Shown: piece by piece, positions 1-64,000 of the stretch
Layout: each line of letters starts with the position of its first letter
How positions within the stretch are numbered: the stretch's first letter is position 1
Source: Erinaceus europaeus
Lineage: Eukaryota > Chordata > Mammalia > Eulipotyphla > Erinaceidae
Length of the DNA: 64,000 nucleotides
Assembly: GCF_950295315.1 (NCBI RefSeq)
Contig: NC_080171.1
Location: forward strand, 111,555,593-111,619,592
Direction: 5' to 3'
Position numbers and translations under genes: made by a program
The notes under the pieces: model-generated
Database searches by the model: none
Seen by the model: the letters and a program-made list of their open reading frames with translations, nothing else
Told to the model about the DNA's origin: nothing

Positions 1-155
1 ATCTTTCTCTCCTCCTCTCTGTCTTCCCCTCCTTTCTCCATTTCTCTCTGTCCTATCCAACAACGACGACAACAACAATAATAACTACAACAATAAAACA
101 ACAAGGGTAACAAAAGGGAATAAATAAATAAAATAAATATTTTTTTTAAAAAAAG
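1..155 (+). mobile_element. SINE-A (hedgehog tRNA-derived SINE), 3' part cut by window edge
   Basis: The CT-rich stretch, the tctctctgtcctatccaaca block, the (AAC)n run and the (AATA)n tail match the second half of the complete copy at 29443-29805. The tRNA-like head lies outside the window. Ends in T8 and A7 runs. No coding capacity. Confidence 0.85.
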
Positions 156-221
156 AAGCAAGGGTAGGTACATATCACCATACAAAAATGGTTCTTCCAA
201 AACCATTGAATGTATAGCACT

Positions 222-335
222 GAGCTGGGATGATAGAGTAATTGTTATGCAAAAAGCCTTTAATGCATGAGGTTCCAAGTTCAATCCCCAGCATCATCAA
301 TAAGCCAGAGCTGAGCATGACACTTGTAATATATA
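222..335 (+). mobile_element. SINE-B (older tRNA-derived SINE)
   Basis: Carries a diverged A-box block (gatagagtaattgttatgc), the atgcatgagg block and a B-box-like ttcaatcccc, followed by the family's ccagagctgagca tail. The same order occurs at 19290 and 27745. Decayed, with no TSD found. Confidence 0.7.
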
Positions 336-375
336 TTATGTAATTATTATATATATAGCATTAAAAGTGAATTCT

Positions 376-512
376 GGTGATGGACAGATAGCTCAATAAG
401 CAGGCTGTGTGCCTTGCAATGTCCAAGTTCAAATCTAAGTGGAGAGTCATGGGCGGCAGTAGGGGAAGTTCTTATACTGATACATCTCTGTCTAGCTGAA
501 TACAAAAAAGTG
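376..512 (+). mobile_element. Degenerate tRNA-derived SINE
   Basis: Contains agatagctcaataagcagg (A-box-like) and ccaagttcaaatc (B-box-like) about 35 bp apart, then an eroded pyrimidine block ending in tacaaaaaa. Probably related to the SINE at 776. Family assignment is weak. Confidence 0.5.
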
Positions 513-775
513 AATTATAATATAAATTATGGTACATTCACAATGATGACAATGAGATAGGTTTAGTAATTGTAATGTGTGTACCATGATGGTGACGGAT
601 GATGATGTGGGGGAAACTGCATGTGCAAGATAAGTGGATGTATGGGAAACCCCTGTGTGTTCTACAGAATCTTTCTAAGTGAAATTCTACATAACACAAA
701 CTGCTATAAAACAAAGTCAATTAAAACTGAGAATGAGGAAGAAGGTTTAATAACATATCAGAATAAAAACATCTT

Positions 776-930
776 GAGCTAGCGAAATAGCTCAGTTGGG
801 TAGCGTGCTATTTTGCCATGTGTGAGACCCAGGTTTGAGCCCAGCCCCCATCACAATGAAGGGAACATTAGTGCGGTGGTTTCTTTTCTCTTTTCTGCCT
901 CTGTGCCCCTCTTTCTAGACCTAGAAAAAT
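776..930 (+). mobile_element. SINE-D (tRNA-derived)
   Basis: The head reads like a tRNA: atagctcagttgggtagcg (A-box), then gacccaggtttgagccc (B-box), followed by cccccatcaca and a CT-rich stretch. The spacing suits an internal Pol III promoter. The copy is old. Confidence 0.7.
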
Positions 931-1375
931 GACTCATAATAAGCATCAATGTACCTATTCTCAACAGAGTGGTAAAGAAAAGAATTAAGTGAATCCAGAT
1001 TTATTAATGCCATAAAATGATGCCTCCTATACAGTAGAAAATTATGCATTGTTTAAAACAATTAGACTGATTAAAAATAAGTTACATAAAATCATGGGTG
1101 AATTATAAATTCATATTGTTAATGAAACAAGCCAGTGCATTAAAAACTATATATAGTAAAATTCTAATTATATAACATTTTAGAAAGGAAAATGCACAGA
1201 GACAGTAAACAGCTCAGTGGTTTCCAGGACTCTAAAGAAGTAGGGCACGAAAGTAAACCACAAGAAAATTTTCAGACTCGTTAAATTACTGTGTATAATA
1301 ATTACCCACACCTATAGTGATGGAATCAAACCACTGTCACTTGACAAAAAAGATTACTGGCATAAAGAATGAATC
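931..1375. other. Unassigned AT-rich sequence
   Basis: Single-copy-looking AT-rich DNA. I see no reading frame of note, no RNA gene and no repeat family that I recognise. Confidence 0.5.
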
Positions 1376-1430
1376 TTTTATTTTTTTGCTGGGGCTTCGC
1401 TAACTTTTCCAAATAGACAAAGAGAGAGAG

Positions 1431-1465
<35 letters not shown>

Positions 1466-1580
1466 ACAGCACTGAAACTTCCCATAATGCTATGTGTGTG
1501 TATATCAGGACTTGAACCTGTTTCCCATGTATGTCAAAGCAGGTGCCTGCCCAGGTCAGTTATTGTACTGACCCATAAAT
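1376..1580 (-). mobile_element. Old tRNA-derived SINE with (GA)n expansion
   Basis: Read on the minus strand it has a B-box-like aggttcaagtcc, and on plus a purine block with cacagcactgaaacttccc. A (GA)n microsatellite at about 1421-1462 has grown from the SINE's CT-rich segment. Confidence 0.6.
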
Positions 1581-2100
1581 AGTGAATTTTGTGCAAACAG
1601 ATTTAAAATCATTTAGAAGTCTGGAAGATTCAAACTGTAGAATAAAACATAAACTGTGAGAAACACTCTAATTATATTGCCAATATATGAAATAACTTTA
1701 CTGAATGGATGGTAGAAAAATCTAGTATTCTACAGAAGCCTGGGAATGAATGGAAAATTTACTAGTGAAGGCAAAAGAAAGTATATATAGGCACTTTACA
1801 CTAGATTTTTAAAAAATTCTTCCTTAAAATAGAGTGAGTTAAGACTTTTGACACTGCCATCTGTGTATACTGAAATGAAAAATTAAGTAAATGAATGGAA
1901 GCTGATGAGAGTCAGATTTTTTTCTATTGAAGTGGGAAATTAGACCAAAGCAATGTAAGGAAGTTAAAATAATGAAGGGAGCCTTCCAAAGACATGATTA
2001 TAGAGTAGTTGCAGCTTAGTTTTGCCTTCCTTGGTAAACTAGGAAAACCAATGAATATCACCTGAAACACCAACAAAATACTACTCTATAATTTTGTAAA
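1581..2100. other. Unassigned AT-rich sequence
   Basis: Nothing recognised: no significant ORF and no clear repeat family. It directly precedes the tandem units at 2121. Confidence 0.5.
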
Positions 2101-2120
2101 ATAATACAAAAATTCAATAA

Positions 2121-3640
2121 ACCACAGGTGAGTACAGAAGCTTGTAGCTTGTGGACAGTAAAGGTGTGAGGGAGAGATTCCTGGGACTAAAAGGTCCATT
2201 CAGGAATGGCTGGTACCAGACTGGGAGTTTGGCAGCTGAGGCTCACCAAGTACTTCTAAAGCTCAAGTAAAGAAACTCTTAAAAAAAGCAAGCAAAAAAT
2301 AAAGAAAGGAAGGAAGGTAGAAAGGAAGGAAGAAACTAAAAGAAAGTCACATAAGCTGCAGATGAGTAAGGTACATATGACCTGTGGACAGAAAGGGGGT
2401 AAGTGAGCAACTCGTGGGATTCCCAGGAATAAAACCCAGCACTCAGAGACAGCAGGGACCAAATAAGTTTGGCAGCTGAGATACACCCCTTACAGGTACA
2501 AGTTTTAGCAATAGAAAGACTGTTAAAAAGAATAAAAATCACCTGAAAATTCACCAATTTACAAACATGACTCATCAAATCCCCATTGCTGTTGCCCACA
2601 GAGGCTTAAAACAGCAGCAAGGAAATCAATTCAAGAAACTAAACTTAAGATTCAAGAAATTAGTGATCATTTCAATAAATAATTAGAAAGTACAAAAAAA
2701 AAAATCCAAACAGCACTGCAGAGCTTAAAGGAAATTTTGAATGCAGTTTAGTTTGAGGTGAAAGGCCTGGGAAATAGACTTCACCAGGTAGAGGAGAGGA
2801 TATCAACACCAGAAGACATGCTGTCACACTGTAAATTTAAAACACTTTTTTTGACAGGACAGAGAAATTGAAAGGGAAGGAGACAGAGTGGAAGAGAGAT
2901 AAGAAAGACACCTACAGAACTACTTCACAACTTGGTATGCGTCTCCACTTGGCAGGTGGGGAGCTGGGAACTCAAACCCAGATTATTTCTTGGGCCCTTG
3001 TAGTTAGTTGTATGTTCGCTTAGCTGGGTACGCCACCACCCAGCCCCCTTAGTTTAAAACTCTTGGAGTGGAAAGATTTAGGAAAAAGTGAAGCACTTCT
3101 CAGTGAAATACCATATTTTTTCAGAAAGATGAATACCAGAGTTGTCAGGATCCCTGAGGAAAAAGAGAAAGTGAGGAGTAGATTACATATTCAAAGAAAT
3201 TTTAACAGAGAAAGTTCCATACCTGAGCAATATTCAAAACATAGAAATCCAAGAAGGTGAACACACACCTAAATTCTTGAATCCAAAATGACACATACCA
3301 AAACACATCATTGTAAAACTATCTAAAACCAGAAACAAAGAGAAAATATTGCAAGCTGCCAGAAAAAGGAAGAAAGTCACATACTAAGGCAGAACCATCT
3401 GGATTTCATCAGATTTCTCATCACAAACCCTAAAGGCAAGGACAGAGTAGGATGAAATATTCAAAATATTAAAAGATACGAACTGCCAGCTATGACTTAT
3501 GTATCCTGCTAAATTATCCTTCAGATATGAGAAAGAAATAAAGATCTTTGCAAATATTCAGAAACTGAAGAAATTTGCCACTATCAACCCTGCCTTGTAA
3601 GAATTTCTGAGAAAAGTTCAACATGAAAAGAAGTGGAGAT
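2121..3640 (+). mobile_element. Old L1-type LINE: 5' tandem units and decayed ORF1 region
   Basis: Two diverged tandem units (about 2121-2285 and 2361-2535) share tgtggacag, a gggaCT/gggatt block and tttggcagctgag, as in promoter monomers of some L1 5' ends. Downstream, K/E-rich decayed sequence resembles an L1 ORF1 coiled coil and its C-terminal part (cctgctaaattatccttcag near 3508). A SINE has inserted at 2848-3052. All frames are broken. HAL1-type origin is possible. Confidence 0.55.
2848..3052 (-). mobile_element. SINE-A copy inside old L1, with TSD
   Basis: Minus-strand SINE-A: cagagagaaattg-like block, the cacctacagaactac block, ggcaggtggggagct and a terminal ccaccacccagcccc (reverse complement of the SINE head). 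Flanks match as TTTAAAACACTT (2836-2847) and TTTAAAACTCTT (3053-3064), one mismatch. It postdates the L1. Confidence 0.8.
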
Positions 3641-11633: not shown

Positions 11634-11642
11634 ATTAAAATA
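11634..11642. repeat. TSD (left) of LINE stub
   Basis: ATTAAAATA here and again at 11771-11779. The uninterrupted X copy near 61793 has a single cgttaaagtatgtcag at this place, confirming an insertion. Confidence 0.85.
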
Positions 11643-11770
11643 GACTATGACCCACATAGTCAATGACTGCCACCTCTCCAGATTCAAAGGAGGTCTCAAA
11701 ACTTTACATCAGGCTCAACCTGACACTGTTGACTGGCTATGGAAGAAGGGCAAACGCTAGAAGAAGAAGA
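11643..11770 (+). mobile_element. 3' stub of Jockey/CR1-type LINE
   Basis: 128 bp matching 45760-45880 of the full copy: the end of the C-terminal CCHC region (atgacccacatagtcaatga), the terminal stop codon in cgctagaagaag and a short (AAG)n tail. A 9-bp TSD flanks it. Severe 5' truncation is typical of incomplete target-primed reverse transcription. It lacks ribozyme and catalytic domains. Confidence 0.9.
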
Positions 11771-25302: not shown

Positions 25303-25938
25303 TACGGAACTCCAGTATGGTTCCGTAGCCCCCATGTCCACTTGGTCGATTCCAAATTATATTCCTCCATGAGGATAATTTCTGGAACCATCCGTTCCAC
25401 CCCGGTTCCATGGCTGCCAGTTCTTAGCAACATCGCCCCGCCAGATATTCGTCGGGATGCGGCATCATCTAAGTTCATTTCCCACGTCTACGCTCGACCG
25501 GACCTGCCAATATACGTGGATATCTTCACCCACCCTGTCCAACGCTTGATGTCTCGTCACCCAATCTGGTCCCCTACGCCTACACTGAACTTCTCTGTTC
25601 CAGACTCTTGGAAACAGAGTTGGCAGTCAGCTGAGGTAAAGAACAAACACCTCATCACAGACCCCTGCGAGCGTCAACCCGGCTTTGACCTAGCACGTTA
25701 TGATTGGGCCCTCCTCAATCGCTATGGAACAGGCCATGGCCGGTGCGCCGCTATGTTCCATCGCTGGGGAGCCAGAGACGACCCGAACTGCCCCTGCGGC
25801 TCCAGACAGACTATGACCCACATAGTCAACGACTGCCACCTCTCCAGATTCAAAGGAGGTCTCGAAACTTTACATCAGGCTCAACCTGACGCTGTTGACT
25901 GGCTACGGAAGAAGGGCAAACGCTAGAAGAAGAAGAAG
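25303..25938 (+). mobile_element. Jockey/CR1-type LINE, 5'-truncated copy
   Basis: Matches 45268-45880 of the full copy and ends in the stop codon plus an (AAG)n tail. I counted about 16 differences in roughly 600 aligned bases, many of them CpG transitions, so both copies are young. It keeps 7 bases (in the ttccgtagccc stretch, 25321-25331) that the full copy lacks, so its frame reads through where the other breaks. Its 5' end is a perfect fold-back hairpin (25300-25330). Confidence 0.93.
25342..25926 (+). pseudogene. LINE ORF, C-terminal 194-residue fragment
   Basis: The open frame is the C-terminal region after the reverse transcriptase. It has a cysteine/histidine motif CPCGSRQTMTHIVNDC (C-x-C-x7-H-x4-C), as in the zf-RVT-type ends of many non-LTR elements, and finishes with DWLRKKGKR and a stop directly before the tail. 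The endonuclease and RT are missing, so this is a dead fragment although uninterrupted. The ATG at 25342 is an internal methionine of the parent protein, not a real start; coding sequence begins near 25311. Confidence 0.85.
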
Positions 25939-42814: not shown

Positions 42815-42825
42815 ACTTAAGGTCT
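42815..42825. repeat. TSD (left) of full-length LINE
   Basis: ACTTAAGGTCT, identical to 45881-45891. The next base, 42826, is the predicted ribozyme +1 guanosine. Confidence 0.95.
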
Positions 42826-42895
42826 GGGATGTATTGGATCGACCTTCCCGTGGTGCATCTCGTGAGTACCCATTCTTTGGGGAAACTGACGATCC
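42826..42895 (+). ncRNA. HDV-like self-cleaving ribozyme, 5' end of full-length LINE
   Basis: P1 GGGATGT (42826-42832) with GCATCTC (42855-42861), two G-U wobbles; J1/2 ATT; P2 GGATCG (42836-42841) with CGATCC (42890-42895); P3 ACC (42842-42844) with GGT (42852-42854); L3 TTCCCGT (42845-42851); P4 CCCA/TGGG (42869-42872, 42878-42881); J4/2 GAAACTGA (42882-42889), whose CTGA (42886-42889) fits the C-N-R-A pattern with C42886 as catalytic base. P1.1 would have one C-G pair. Predicted cleavage is just 5' of G42826. By family knowledge, such ribozymes trim the element RNA from upstream transcript; activity is inferred. Confidence 0.85.
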
Positions 42896-42916
42896 TCCCT
42901 AGCCGACTGAATCCAC

Positions 42917-45873
42917 ATGGATCCCAGTCACTTTCAAAGCCAGCAACAAGCAGCTCCTGACAGCTTTCAAGCTGTTGGTCCTGCTCTTCGAGTCCTCCAA
43001 CTTAATGTTGAGGGGCTGTCCTTTGCCAAACGTGTTCTTATTGGTCAATTGGCTATACAGCATCAGGCAGATGTTATCTGCCTACAAGAAACACATATAG
43101 CAGTCGATGAAGCTGCTCGATTCACCATCAGTGGATTCGATTTAATATGCTATGATCTCCATCCTAAACATGGCCGAGCCATCTATGCCAAATCGTGTCT
43201 TCTGGACGTTCACCATACGGCCTCTTTGACCTTCTACGACTCCATTACTATTGGAACTATTCAGCTCGTCAATGTATATAAGCCTCCCAGTGCCTCATGG
43301 GATAACGAGGTCCTGCCTAGCCCGAATCACCCAGCCGTTTACATTGGAGACTTTAATAGTCATCACCAAGACTGGGGATATTCCTCCACTCGTGCTGACG
43401 GCTCTATCTTAGCTGACTGGGTTTCAGCGAATGACCTCTCCCTATTATATGATCCCAAAGAGCCAGGCTCTTTTCACAGTGCTAGATGGAATAAAGACTC
43501 GTCACCCGACCTGTGCTGGATTAGCACAGTCAACAGCCAAGCCTTTCCCGCTACGAGACACGTTCTCAAGATCTTCCTGCACAGTCATCACCACCCAGCT
43601 ATCATCCACATTGGTCTCCAGCTCCCACTGATTCTGTGCTCGGTGAAACTAAGATGGAACTTTCGGAAAGCAAACTGGCATCTGTTCAGTGATCTTACCA
43701 ACAAATCTATTCCTGCAATTCCAATTAACTCTATCCCCTCTGAAGATTCCTACAGGCGCTTCCACCAAGCCATCTTCAAAGCAGCTTCCCAAGCCATTCC
43801 TTGTGGAAGACGTGCTAACTATACGCCTTGTCTTGATGCTGAATGCGAGCAACTACTAAAGCAGTATGATGAGTCGGGCGATCCAGATGTGGCTGACCAT
43901 CTCATTGCCTCCCTGGATGCGGCACGCCAAGCCCGCTGGCAACAACTCACAGAAAGTCTGAACTTCACCCACTCAAGTAGGAAGGCCTGGAAGCTTCTTC
44001 ACAGACTGGGTGCTGGTAGCCAACCCCCTCCCGTCTCCCATCCTCCCGTAACTCCAAAATTGGTGGCCAGTCACCTAACTCAAGTTGGACGTGCTAAGAT
44101 CGACCCAGTCTGGAAAAGAGAAATATCCCATGAGTGGTCATCCCACTTCCGGTTATCTTGTCCATCTCCAAAAGTCTCTCCCTTTATACTGTCTGAACTG
44201 GAAGACGCTTTGAAGAGGGTTAAACCGGGAACAGCTGCTGGCTATGATAACATCACCCCAGAACTCATTCTTAACCTGGGTCCCATGGCAAAGAAGTGGC
44301 TCGCTTCATTCCTGTCCCACATCTTGGAATCTGAGTCTATGCCCAAAGTTTGGCGTCGTGCGAAGATTATAGTGGTTTTGAAACCAAAGAAAGACCCAAC
44401 ACTGGCCGCCAGCTATAGACCAATTTCCCTCCTCTCTGTGTTACAAACTCCTTGAGAGGCTGCTTCTGTCACGTATTTCTCATCTTACAGAGAAATTCCT
44501 ATCACTGCCCAAGCTGGTTTCCACCCAGGAAGATCTACCTGCGAACAAGCCCTGGCCCTCTCAACTTACATTGAGAATGGATTCCAGAAGAATTTAAAGA
44601 CGGGTGCTGTCTTTGTTGATCTCACAGCAGCCTATGACATGGTTTGGCACCGTGGTCTCCTAGTCAAGATCTCAAGATACCTGCCTCCATGGGTGGCCAA
44701 CACTATATCGTTTCTTCTCCAAAACAGAAGATTCCGGATGCATCTGGGTGACAAGTGTAGCAGATGGAGACTTGTCTCAAGTGGCCTCCCCCAGGGCTCT
44801 GTTCTGGCTCCGATGCTATTCAATATTTACATCAATGACCTCCCAGAAACTTCTTCAAGGAAGTTCATCTACGCCAATGACATCTGCTGTGCAACTCAGG
44901 CATCCAAGTTTGACATCCTCGAGGAAACACTCACGAAAGACATGTCTCTGATATCTGATTACTGTAAAAAATGGCGACTAAAAACGGTATCATCTGTTTT
45001 CCATCTACACCATGCCTCGGCCTCGCGTGAGCTTAATGTGCAGCTTGGCAATACGAGAATCCAGCATGAAGCCCAGCCAGTCTATCTTGGCGTTACTCTC
45101 GATCGCACCCTGTCATTTCATGAACATCTCACAAAAACTGCAGCAAAGGTGGGCACGAGGAATAACATCATTGCAAGACTGGCCAGCTCCTCATGGGGCG
45201 CGAGCGCTTCCACACTACGATCATCATCTCTGGCATTATGCTATTCCACTGCAGAATACTGTGCCCCAGTATGGTTCCCCATGTCCACTTGGTCGATTCC
45301 AAATTATATTCCTCCATGAGGATAATATCTGGAACTATCCGTTCCACCCCGGTTCCATGGCTGCCAGTTCTTAGCAACATCGCCCCACCAGATATTCATC
45401 GGGATGCAGCATCATCTAAGTTCATTTCCCACGTCTATGCTCGACCGGACCTGCCAATATATGCGGATATCTTCGCCCACCCTGTCCAACGCTTGACGTC
45501 TCGTCACCCAATCTGGTCCCCTACGCCTACACTGAACTTCTCTGTTCCAGACTCTTGGAAACAGAGTTGGCAGTCAGCTGAGGTAAAGAACAAACACCTC
45601 ATCACAGACCCCTGCGAGCGTCAACCCGGCTTTGACCTAGCACGTTATGATTGGGCCCTCCTCAATCGCTATCGAACAGGCCATGGCAGGTGTGCCACTA
45701 TGTTCCATCGCTGGGGAGCCAGAGACGACCCGAACTGCCCCTGTGGCTACAGACAGACTATGACCCACATAGTCAACGACTGCCACCTCTCCAGATTCAA
45801 AGGAGGTCTCGAAACTTTACATCAGGCTCAACCTGACGCTGTTGACTGGCTACGGAAGAAGGGCAAACGCTAG
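42917..45873 (+). pseudogene. LINE polyprotein (APE endonuclease, RT, CCHC), broken
   Basis: First frame (42917-44455) is open for 512 residues: endonuclease with LQLNVEGL (residue 27), LQETH (56-60), GDFNSHHQDWG (144-154), SPDL (196-199) and SHHHP at 223-227 where active enzymes have S-D-H; then RT start (KPGTAAGYDNITPE, ASYRPISLLS). A frameshift near 44440 ends it; a second near 44500 returns to frame; a 7-bp deletion near 45278 (versus the 25-kb copy) breaks it again. The middle part has AVFVDLTAAYD, GLPQGSVLAPMLFN and YANDI at 44870, an altered Y-A-D-D, so the catalytic site is lost. The last part (to 45873) has CPCGYRQTMTHIVNDC. ATG 42917 is the first in this frame after the ribozyme. 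Cannot mobilise itself. Confidence 0.9.
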
Positions 45874-45880
45874 AAGAAGA
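45871..45880 (+). repeat. Stop codon and (AAG)n-type tail of LINE
   Basis: TAG followed by AAGAAGA. All four copies end in this kind of GAA/AAG run right after the stop, so the element's 3' end is a trinucleotide repeat, not poly(A). Confidence 0.85.
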
Positions 45881-45891
45881 ACTTAAGGTCT
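45881..45891. repeat. TSD (right) of full-length LINE
   Basis: ACTTAAGGTCT, pairs with 42815-42825. Confidence 0.95.
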
Positions 45892-62159: not shown

Positions 62160-62170
62160 AGAATATTGTT
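62160..62170. repeat. TSD (left) of short LINE derivative
   Basis: AGAATATTGTT, identical to 62368-62378. The next base is the predicted ribozyme +1. Confidence 0.92.
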
Positions 62171-62240
62171 GGGATGCATTGGATCGACCTTCTCGTGGTG
62201 CATCCCGTGAGTACCCATTCATTGGGGAAACTGACGATCC
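62171..62240 (+). ncRNA. HDV-like self-cleaving ribozyme, short LINE derivative
   Basis: All-Watson-Crick version. P1 GGGATGC (62171-62177) with GCATCCC (62200-62206); J1/2 ATT; P2 GGATCG (62181-62186) with CGATCC (62235-62240); P3 ACC (62187-62189) with GGT (62197-62199); L3 TTCTCGT (62190-62196); P4 CCCA/TGGG (62214-62217, 62223-62226); J4/2 ending CTGA (62231-62234) with C62231 as candidate catalytic base. Against the 42.8-kb copy, both P1 changes keep pairing (G-C to G-U). P1.1 has only one C-G pair, which could lower activity. Confidence 0.88.
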
Positions 62241-62261
62241 CTCCTAGCTGACTGAATCCAC

Positions 62262-62357
62262 ATGGATCCCAGTCACTTTCAAAGCCAGCAACAAGCAGCT
62301 CCTGACAGCTTTCAACCTGACGCTGTTGACTGGCTACGGAAGAAGGGCAATCTCTAG
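62262..62357 (+). pseudogene. 31-codon fused micro-ORF of short derivative
   Basis: Starts at the ATG corresponding to 42917 and continues in frame across the deletion into the parent's C-terminal end (PDAVDWLRKKG), stopping at 62355-62357. No domain. In-frame fusion may be chance (1 in 3). Confidence 0.6.
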
Positions 62358-62378
62358 AAGAAGAAGAAGAATATTGTT

Positions 62379-62971: not shown

Positions 62972-63115
62972 GCCAAGAAGGTGGCTCAGAGGCTAGAGTA
63001 CATAGCTTGTATGTGTGAGTCTCCATATCTAGTTCCTAGCTCTTCATATGATAGAGTGGTGGTCAGTTCTCTCTCTTTCTCCTTCTCACCCACTCACAAA
63101 CACTCACATATTCTG
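62972..63115 (+). mobile_element. SINE-D copy
   Basis: gccaagaaggtggctcagag (A-box-like), tatgtgtgagtctccatatc, ctagttcctagctcttcata, then a CT stretch. Diverged tRNA-derived head like the one at 776. Confidence 0.55.
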
Positions 63116-63149
63116 CTCCAATGTTCCCAAATAACAAGATCTAGGCCTT

Positions 63150-64000
63150 TCGAAAACCAGCTGGGAGAGACTCAGAGTGACTCGAATTCCTTTTAAACTT
63201 CAGTGGATCAATGTTTTCATAAGTCAGGTAGGTGTTGTGTGACTACAGGGTTGTTAGTCATATGAGTGGCTTATTATTTGTTCAGTCACGACTAGAAGCA
63301 CACACTGGAATGTTTCTAAATTTACCAAAGATCACCTCCTGTCACTCAGATTATATAAAACATCCAGGTTTAGGCTGGGGCTTGGAAAATGTATCAACAT
63401 GGATGACAAAGTGATATCTGCATTTTATAAGGCCATCTCTTCTGTTACACTGTTTTTTTGAATCTGTGGAACAATGCAGAGCTTTCCCTTTTGGCTCCTG
63501 TAATTTCCTCAGCTAGGAATCATCTTCTTTCATTTGCATATGAGGAAGCTGGGTTCAGGTACCTTTATCCAATGTCACAGAGAAAAGAGACCTTATTTCA
63601 ATAAGCTTATGTTGTTTGGTTTTGATTCGTTATACATATCATTTTGCTAAACAAATGAAACCTACCAGAAAACAGCAGATCCTGAGTTCTTCATATCTCT
63701 GAAGATTTAATTCTAGCAAATGATAAACATCACATATGCAAAAAGAAAGGTTACTTGGAAATAGTTGATCCAGACAAAATGAGTGGGGGGAAAAAAAAAC
63801 ATTTGAGGCATCTCTTTATGCTAGCTGATTAGTTTGACTTGCAGTGACACAGCTAGAGAAATCAATTATTCTGGAATTCAGAATGTCACATACTTTTCCA
63901 GGACAGGAAGCTACACTGACTCCCAGAAAATTATTAAAAGTATCTAACCAAACAAATATGCTCGTAGGTGGTTTGAGGTTGTTTTCAGATTTGTCAGTTT
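63150..64000. other. Unassigned sequence, possible MIR relic at 63500-63590
   Basis: catatgaggaagctgggttc and tccaatgtcacag resemble a MIR core; the rest has no gene or repeat that I recognise. Confidence 0.4.

Follow-up and report, generated by a model that had tools for sequence, protein, structure and literature searches.

A predicted HDV-like ribozyme at the 5′ ends of a hedgehog LINE and its short non-autonomous derivative

Introduction

Ribozymes resembling that of hepatitis delta virus (HDV) are found at the 5′ ends of ingi-type retroelements of trypanosomes (PMC4035085; here and throughout, papers are cited for the passages that bear on the point). Here, we describe a predicted ribozyme of this kind in a mammal, the hedgehog Erinaceus europaeus. 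It makes up the first 70 nt of a 197-nt non-autonomous retroelement that starts at position 62171 of a 64,000-nt stretch of contig NC_080171.1 (positions 111,555,593 to 111,619,592, forward strand; hereafter, “the window”), and it recurs at the start of a long interspersed nuclear element (LINE) at position 42826 of the same window. Position n of the short element corresponds to window position 62170 + n.

The closest described system is L1TcRz/Pr77, which is shared by L1Tc, NARTc, and SIDER of the ingi clade in trypanosomatids (PMC4035085, PMC4748587). There, as in the hedgehog, an HDV-like fold lies in the first ~70–77 nt of both a LINE that encodes an endonuclease and a reverse transcriptase (RT) and a short, deleted partner; the cleavage site, predicted in the hedgehog, is at the 5′ end of the element; and the letters CGTG fall in the region of L3/P3. 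The Pr77 promoter of L1Tc depends on its own CGTG (+25 to +28), and changes to these letters reportedly also impair the ribozyme (PMC4748587). In build, the NARTc/RIME elements of trypanosomes are near analogs of the short hedgehog element (PMC4035085). The two systems differ in that the hosts of L1TcRz/Pr77 are protists and catalysis is reported to be kept in the majority, whereas the hedgehog element is known by its fold and is linked to the trypanosome elements by a related clade rather than by a mutual alignment.

A second parallel is provided by R2. The short internally deleted elements (SIDEs) of R2 consist of the ribozyme and the 3′ end only (PMC3414825, PMC3774820). R2 ribozymes have a P1 of 6–7 bp, a variable P4, and few rigid positions (PMC3774820), a description that the hedgehog sequence fits. 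Where the R2 ribozyme cuts at the end of the element, the 5′ junctions are direct joins, share a brief microhomology, or carry a few extra nucleotides, and their variability has been ascribed to microhomology (PMC3774820). In contrast to the hedgehog element, which occupies dispersed sites with target-site duplications (TSDs), R2 is specific to ribosomal DNA and is reported to be absent from mammals (PMC5753468, PMC13188248).

Within mammals, HDV-like ribozymes have been placed in the CPEB3 gene (PMC4908430). The CPEB3 ribozyme (RF00622) is intronic within its host gene and, unlike the hedgehog sequence, is not described in that paper as part of a mobile element. A self-cleaving ribozyme is also present in the 5′ untranslated region of a mammalian LINE, human LINE-1, but it belongs to a different class, being twister-sister-like (PMC11620745). 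A preliminary description of the window, made from its letters alone, stated that no HDV-like ribozyme was known in this type of LINE in a mammal. Our literature search, which covered papers available without subscription and, on the broader topics, the first entries of longer lists, agrees: it found no report of an HDV-like ribozyme in a mammalian LINE or short interspersed nuclear element (SINE). The main text of a 2025 paper on LINEs and SINEs of the African hedgehog contains neither “Vingi” nor “ribozyme” (PMC12026660).

The hedgehog elements themselves very likely belong to families that have already been named, Vingi-1 and Vingi-1N, a view that rests on the literature rather than on a comparison with Repbase. 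These two hedgehog families are said to have been described by Kojima et al. in 2011. Vingi-1N3_EE is named in PMC3183009, and the families resemble the pair described here in combining an Ingi-related LINE with non-autonomous partners; the passages of that paper on which we draw mention no ribozyme.

A predicted double pseudoknot at the start of the element

The preliminary description held that the strands of helices P1–P4 follow one another in the nested order of the HDV fold, that P1 and P2 are fully Watson–Crick, and that the fold stands at the 5′ end of a LINE. The positions returned by our secondary-structure descriptor bear out the first two points; indeed, all pairs of P1, P2, P3, and P4 in the 62171 element are Watson–Crick. 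The third point stands in part: the fold is present, but the element at 62171 is a 197-nt derivative, and the LINE itself spans 42826–45880. In HDV-like ribozymes, the catalytic C in J4/2 is followed by NRA. The hedgehog sequence fits this rule, with C61-U-G-A before the 3′ strand of P2. L3 must provide a U and a G for a trans U–G pair (PMC3386971), and U20 and G25 are at the corresponding positions.

When both strands of the window were scanned with the descriptor, the only match using Watson–Crick pairs alone was at 62171; with G–U pairs allowed, there were two matches, at 62171 and 42826. Dinucleotide shuffling of the window, repeated 337 times and again scanned on both strands, gave no Watson–Crick-only match. 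The same shuffles gave 363 matches with G–U pairs allowed, none with the pattern U.C.CG. in L3. We also shuffled the first 120 nt of the element: with G–U pairs allowed, 1 of 369,000 such shuffles passed when the fold was anchored at nt 1, and 14 of 369,000 when it was anchored anywhere in nt 1–10. The descriptor check that the preliminary description had proposed recovers 62171 and, for a Watson–Crick-only fold or one anchored at nt 1, almost never succeeds in shuffled sequence.

The putative active site is well preserved among genomic copies. An ungapped count kept 66 of 69 places under the requirement that 58 or more of the 70 letters match, which favors conserved copies. T20 and C22 are found in all 66 kept copies and G25 in 65, and the J4/2 letters C61, T62, G63, and A64 are invariant (66/66). 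Differences are most common at nt 35, in P1 (30/66), and at nt 23, in L3 (27/66), followed by nt 1 (8) and nt 2, 3, 4, and 66 (4 each). Since G2 pairs with either letter at nt 35, the commonest difference in P1 preserves pairing. Of the 140 pair cells in an alignment of nine 5′ ends (seven of them distinct), 99.3% hold standard pairs, the further pair types being three G–U forms, at 2–35 and 7–30 in P1 and at 16–65 in P2. Controls in which the partner strand was slid gave 29.4–50.0% paired cells versus 99.3%, a comparison that says little because the structure was read off the same sequences. Covariation was dropped as a proof of the fold, since the copies are too alike.

Insertion junctions and the predicted cleavage site

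The predicted cleavage site coincides with the start of the element as inserted. HDV-like ribozymes cleave at the nucleotide with which P1 begins (PMC4908430); with a cut there, the element should start exactly at nt 1. We collected 67 distinct 5′ ends, with the 3′ end also in hand for 44 copies. A TSD of at least 8 nt was present in 31 of these 44 and was not found in the other 13. Among the 31, the TSD ends at nt 1 in 16 and overlaps nt 1–4 in 10, meaning that it abuts or overlaps nt 1 in 26; in the remaining 5, 1–3 extra nt lie between the TSD and nt 1. The TSDs of the scored copies are 8–15 nt long, and the insertion sites are dispersed.

A further set of junctions comes from LINE copies with an inverted 5′ part. 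This arrangement is the one expected from twin priming, which links the end where cDNA synthesis ran off to an inner part of the LINE. There are nine such copies (L010, L011, L015, L016, L018, L019, L034, L035, and L036). In all of them, nt 1 joins internal LINE sequence; the two overlap by 0–4 nt in seven copies, and 9 or 14 nt separate them in the other two.

The copies used for these junctions had been chosen by their likeness to the 5′ end, and a second sample was queried with nt 41–150 only. Twenty of the 40 listed copies were read by eye against the LINE form, 3 of which had been seen in the earlier listing. Ten start at nt 1, although two of these, L090 and L107, are mismatched in nt 2–3; two start at nt 2, two at nt 3, and six further in. 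The 20–21-nt flanks of these 20 copies share no exact word longer than 9 nt. In five of them (L093, L097, L098, L105, and L106), the flank matches internal LINE sequence on the other strand exactly over 15–20 nt, and these are therefore inverted copies as well.

Of the 67 copies, 42 have T at position −1 (e.g., 62170 or 42825) and 4 have G. The letter is also T in seven of the nine inverted copies, where it belongs to internal LINE sequence. The T before nt 1 suggests either that the ends were joined by microhomology through a non-templated A added to the cDNA or that cleavage has a preference.

The short element and its probable partner LINE

The short element consists of the two ends of the LINE. 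Positions 62170–62319 match the LINE 5′ end with 94.7% identity, a match that includes one base upstream of the short element, and 62312–62365 match its 3′ end with 96.3% identity. The flanking 11-nt TSD, AGAATATTGTT, occurs twice in the window versus 0.09 times expected; the TSD of the LINE, ACTTAAGGTCT, also occurs twice, versus 0.04 expected. With a 5′ ribozyme (by fold only), the 3′ end of its partner, a deleted middle, and TSDs of its own, the short element has the build of a SIDE. A genome search for it gave 364 first-look candidates, of which 40 were scored. One copy, L089 (1503 to ~1690), is a natural P4-deletion variant in which the 5′ strand of P4 and part of J1/4 are missing. We rejected a tRNA-derived SINE transcribed by RNA polymerase III (Pol III) as an identity for the short element: a search of its 197 nt with strict consensus sequences for the boxes found neither an A box nor a B box. 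Consequently, its transcription must come from another source.

The LINE encodes an apurinic-type endonuclease (PF14529/PF03372) and an RT (PF00078) in one element of ~3 kb. Its clade is probably Vingi/Ingi, a name drawn from the hedgehog literature and not from an RT tree. Related proteins, including ones from Synaphobranchus and Latimeria, have 34–58% identity among the 120 listed of 161. When the LINE protein alignment was compared with a collection of genome contigs and one of viral contigs, 33 and 27 stretches, respectively, matched the pattern, and none in either collection was confirmed as an encoding locus. The LINE at 42826 is likely the parent of the 197-nt short element and is presumed to be a member of the family of the autonomous partner.

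Proposed self-cleavage and its alternatives

Together, the odds of the fold, the agreement of the active site, the junctions at nt 1, the precedent of the ingi ribozymes, and the presence of the fold in the LINE as well as in the short family lead us to consider it quite probable that the first 70 nt of both elements are an HDV-like self-cleaving ribozyme that would free their RNA from longer transcripts. In such a model, an inserted copy would be transcribed within a longer RNA, through read-through from the host or from an upstream or internal promoter. The nascent RNA is predicted to fold into the P1–P4 double pseudoknot, in which C61 (62231), aided by the L3 core, would cleave 5′ of G1, producing an element RNA with a 5′-OH that starts at nt 1. 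By target-primed reverse transcription, the endonuclease and RT of the LINE would then copy the freed RNA, beginning at the shared 3′ end and running off at nt 1, and the junctions suggest that the second strand joins the target directly or via short microhomology. The short element would retain only the ribozyme and a 3′ end that is recognized by the LINE protein, like R2 SIDEs and NARTc of Trypanosoma cruzi, and would thereby use the protein of the LINE.

Several observations weigh against self-cleavage, and four of them (the lack of covariation, the weak Rfam score, a strong competing hairpin, and a P1.1 of one pair) would favor a fold that is a chance or inert structure, e.g., an inverted-repeat hairpin from P1, without catalysis. 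No pair is changed on both sides among the seven distinct, closely similar sequences, nor in P1–P3 of the 66 kept copies. The Rfam HDV model, RF00094, scores 26.7 bits (E = 0.93 in a scan of 6,001 bases against 4227 families). The gathering cut-off is 50, a threshold that is set by the database and does not describe the fold itself. In the comparison with Rfam covariance models advised in the preliminary description, RF00094 thus aligns the same stretch, but below the cut-off. At E ≤ 5, this model is listed in one of six scanned loci that carry the element, with 25.7 bits, and no Rfam family reaches its gathering score anywhere in the window. In a genome-wide search with RF00094, 86 of 48,892 candidates were scored, so that absence elsewhere is uninformative; one match was listed (32.3 bits, E = 8.16), in the copy of the short element at L089, and this sole listing speaks for the ribozyme, though it is no more than suggestive. 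As a control, the genome was also searched for the CPEB3 ribozyme with RF00622; this search scored 59 of 91,904 candidates and returned three matches, none above the cut-off, and this failure implies that genome-wide RNA searches are insensitive here. Folded without a pseudoknot, the 70 nt reach −26.7 kcal/mol at best, while P1+P3+P4 amount to −19.4 kcal/mol and P2, as a duplex, to about −7.5 kcal/mol, with the pseudoknot penalty excluded. As the first value approximately equals the summed helices of the pseudoknot before any penalty, misfolding is a real competitor. P1.1, to which the preliminary description had assigned a single C–G pair, indeed has one at most, C22–G37 being the sole candidate in the sequence; one or two pairs are within the known range for P1.1 of HDV-like ribozymes (PMC4908430). 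Lastly, 10 of the 20 copies in the sample queried with nt 41–150 start elsewhere than at nt 1. An inert structure is nevertheless improbable given the shuffle odds, the anchoring of the fold at nt 1 of the element, the agreement of U20, G25, and C61 with the HDV core, and the occurrence of the fold in LINE and short family alike.

The precise 5′ ends, a central part of the case for self-cleavage, are also explicable by transcription initiation at nt 1, which would yield equally uniform ends. Nucleotides 1–70 might be an internal promoter for RNA polymerase II (Pol II) that initiates at nt 1, with the ribozyme-like pairing a by-product or the trace of a lost function; the CGTG at nt 24–27 matches the downstream promoter element (DPE) of L1Tc Pr77 (+25 to +28), one base off in position (PMC4748587). 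Yet a promoter needs no 7-bp P1, 6-bp P2, P3, and P4 in HDV order, no C61, and no CNRA, a combination matched by only 1 of 369,000 shuffles. Moreover, the promoter and ribozyme of L1Tc share the same 77 nt, hence the two functions are not exclusive. An added G is typical of cap-derived additions. None of the five copies with extra nt and a TSD of at least 8 nt shows an added G, whereas one copy with a TSD of only 6 nt, L049, does. On balance, a promoter in place of a ribozyme seems decidedly improbable. A special case of the ribozyme model is that the 70 nt serve both as a promoter in DNA, through CGTG, and as a ribozyme in RNA that resets the 5′ ends of read-through transcripts. Besides the evidence for the ribozyme and the CGTG at nt 24–27, this dual role is favored by the need of the short element, with neither Pol III box in strict-consensus form, for another source of transcription, and both activities have been reported for Pr77 (PMC4748587, PMC4035085). 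A four-letter motif is weak evidence, however, and the same letters serve L3/P3 and may simply be required there, and we regard the dual role as somewhat unlikely. The CGTG within L3 and the 3′ strand of P3 is also present in the LINE, at 42849–42852.

If the ribozyme is active, it would be a natural mammalian case of retrotransposon RNA made by a ribozyme and would explain how so short an element spreads without a Pol III promoter. It would also mean that many potential self-cleaving sites have been placed in host transcripts, and it would point to an ancient origin of the 5′ ribozyme, common to the Ingi/Vingi elements of protists and vertebrates. More tentatively, and with rather less than even confidence, we propose a mammalian LINE/SINE partnership in which RNA 5′ ends are made by an HDV-type ribozyme. 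The SINE, lacking a Pol III promoter, would spread as ribozyme and 3′ end only, freed from whatever transcript it has inserted into, and L3 would double as a Pol II promoter motif, a dual RNA/DNA code shared with trypanosome ingi.

Features of the window

Coordinates of the predicted ribozyme, the two elements, and further LINE copies are given in Table 1.

Table 1. Positions of the predicted ribozyme strands and of the retroelement features in the window (nt, position in the short element)
Feature	Position	Strand	Basis or remark
Predicted HDV-like ribozyme, double pseudoknot	62171–62240	+	Predicted cut between 62170 and 62171; descriptor scan, shuffles; RF00094 below cut-off
P1 5′ strand, GGGATGC (nt 1–7)	62171–62177	+	Partner 62200–62206
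P1 3′ strand, GCATCCC (nt 30–36)	62200–62206	+	GCATCTC in commonest LINE form, giving a G–U pair
P2 5′ strand, GGATCG (nt 11–16)	62181–62186	+	Partner 62235–62240
P2 3′ strand, CGATCC (nt 65–70)	62235–62240	+	
P3 5′ strand, ACC (nt 17–19)	62187–62189	+	Partner GGT, nt 27–29 (62197–62199)
L3, TTCTCGT (nt 20–26)	62190–62196	+	U20/G25 at trans U–G positions; C22 for P1.1
P4 hairpin, CCCA-TTCAT-TGGG	62214–62226	+	Pairs nt 44–47/53–56
J4/2, GAAACTGA (nt 57–64)	62227–62234	+	Putative catalytic C61 = 62231
CGTG, letters of L1Tc Pr77 DPE motif	62194–62197	+	+25 to +28 in L1Tc, +24 to +27 here
Non-autonomous retroelement, 197 nt, SIDE-like LINE derivative with internal deletion and (GAA)n tail	62171–62367	+	Two LINE-end matches
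5′ TSD copy of short element, 11 nt, AGAATATTGTT	62160–62170	+	Exact identity with 62368–62378
3′ TSD copy of short element, 11 nt, AGAATATTGTT	62368–62378	+	Exact identity with 62160–62170
Internal-deletion junction; ~LINE nt 150–3003 absent	62312–62319	+	Overlap between the two LINE matches
LINE with endonuclease and RT, 3,055 nt, probably Vingi-type	42826–45880	+	PF14529, PF03372, PF00078; in-frame stops in this copy
5′ TSD of LINE, 11 nt, ACTTAAGGTCT	42815–42825	+	Exact identity with 45881–45891
3′ TSD of LINE, ACTTAAGGTCT	45881–45891	+	Exact identity with 42815–42825
Predicted HDV-like ribozyme of LINE	42826–42895	+	Descriptor scan; P1 with two G–U pairs in this copy
First open part of LINE reading frame, 512 aa	42917–44455	+	Endonuclease and start of RT
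5′-truncated LINE copy without ribozyme	25312–25934	+	96.3% identity
5′-truncated LINE copy without ribozyme	11642–11768	+	96.9% identity

Downstream of the short element, positions 62980–63150 (GGTGGCTCAGAGGCTAGAGTA...) resemble what we take to be a tRNA-type SINE.
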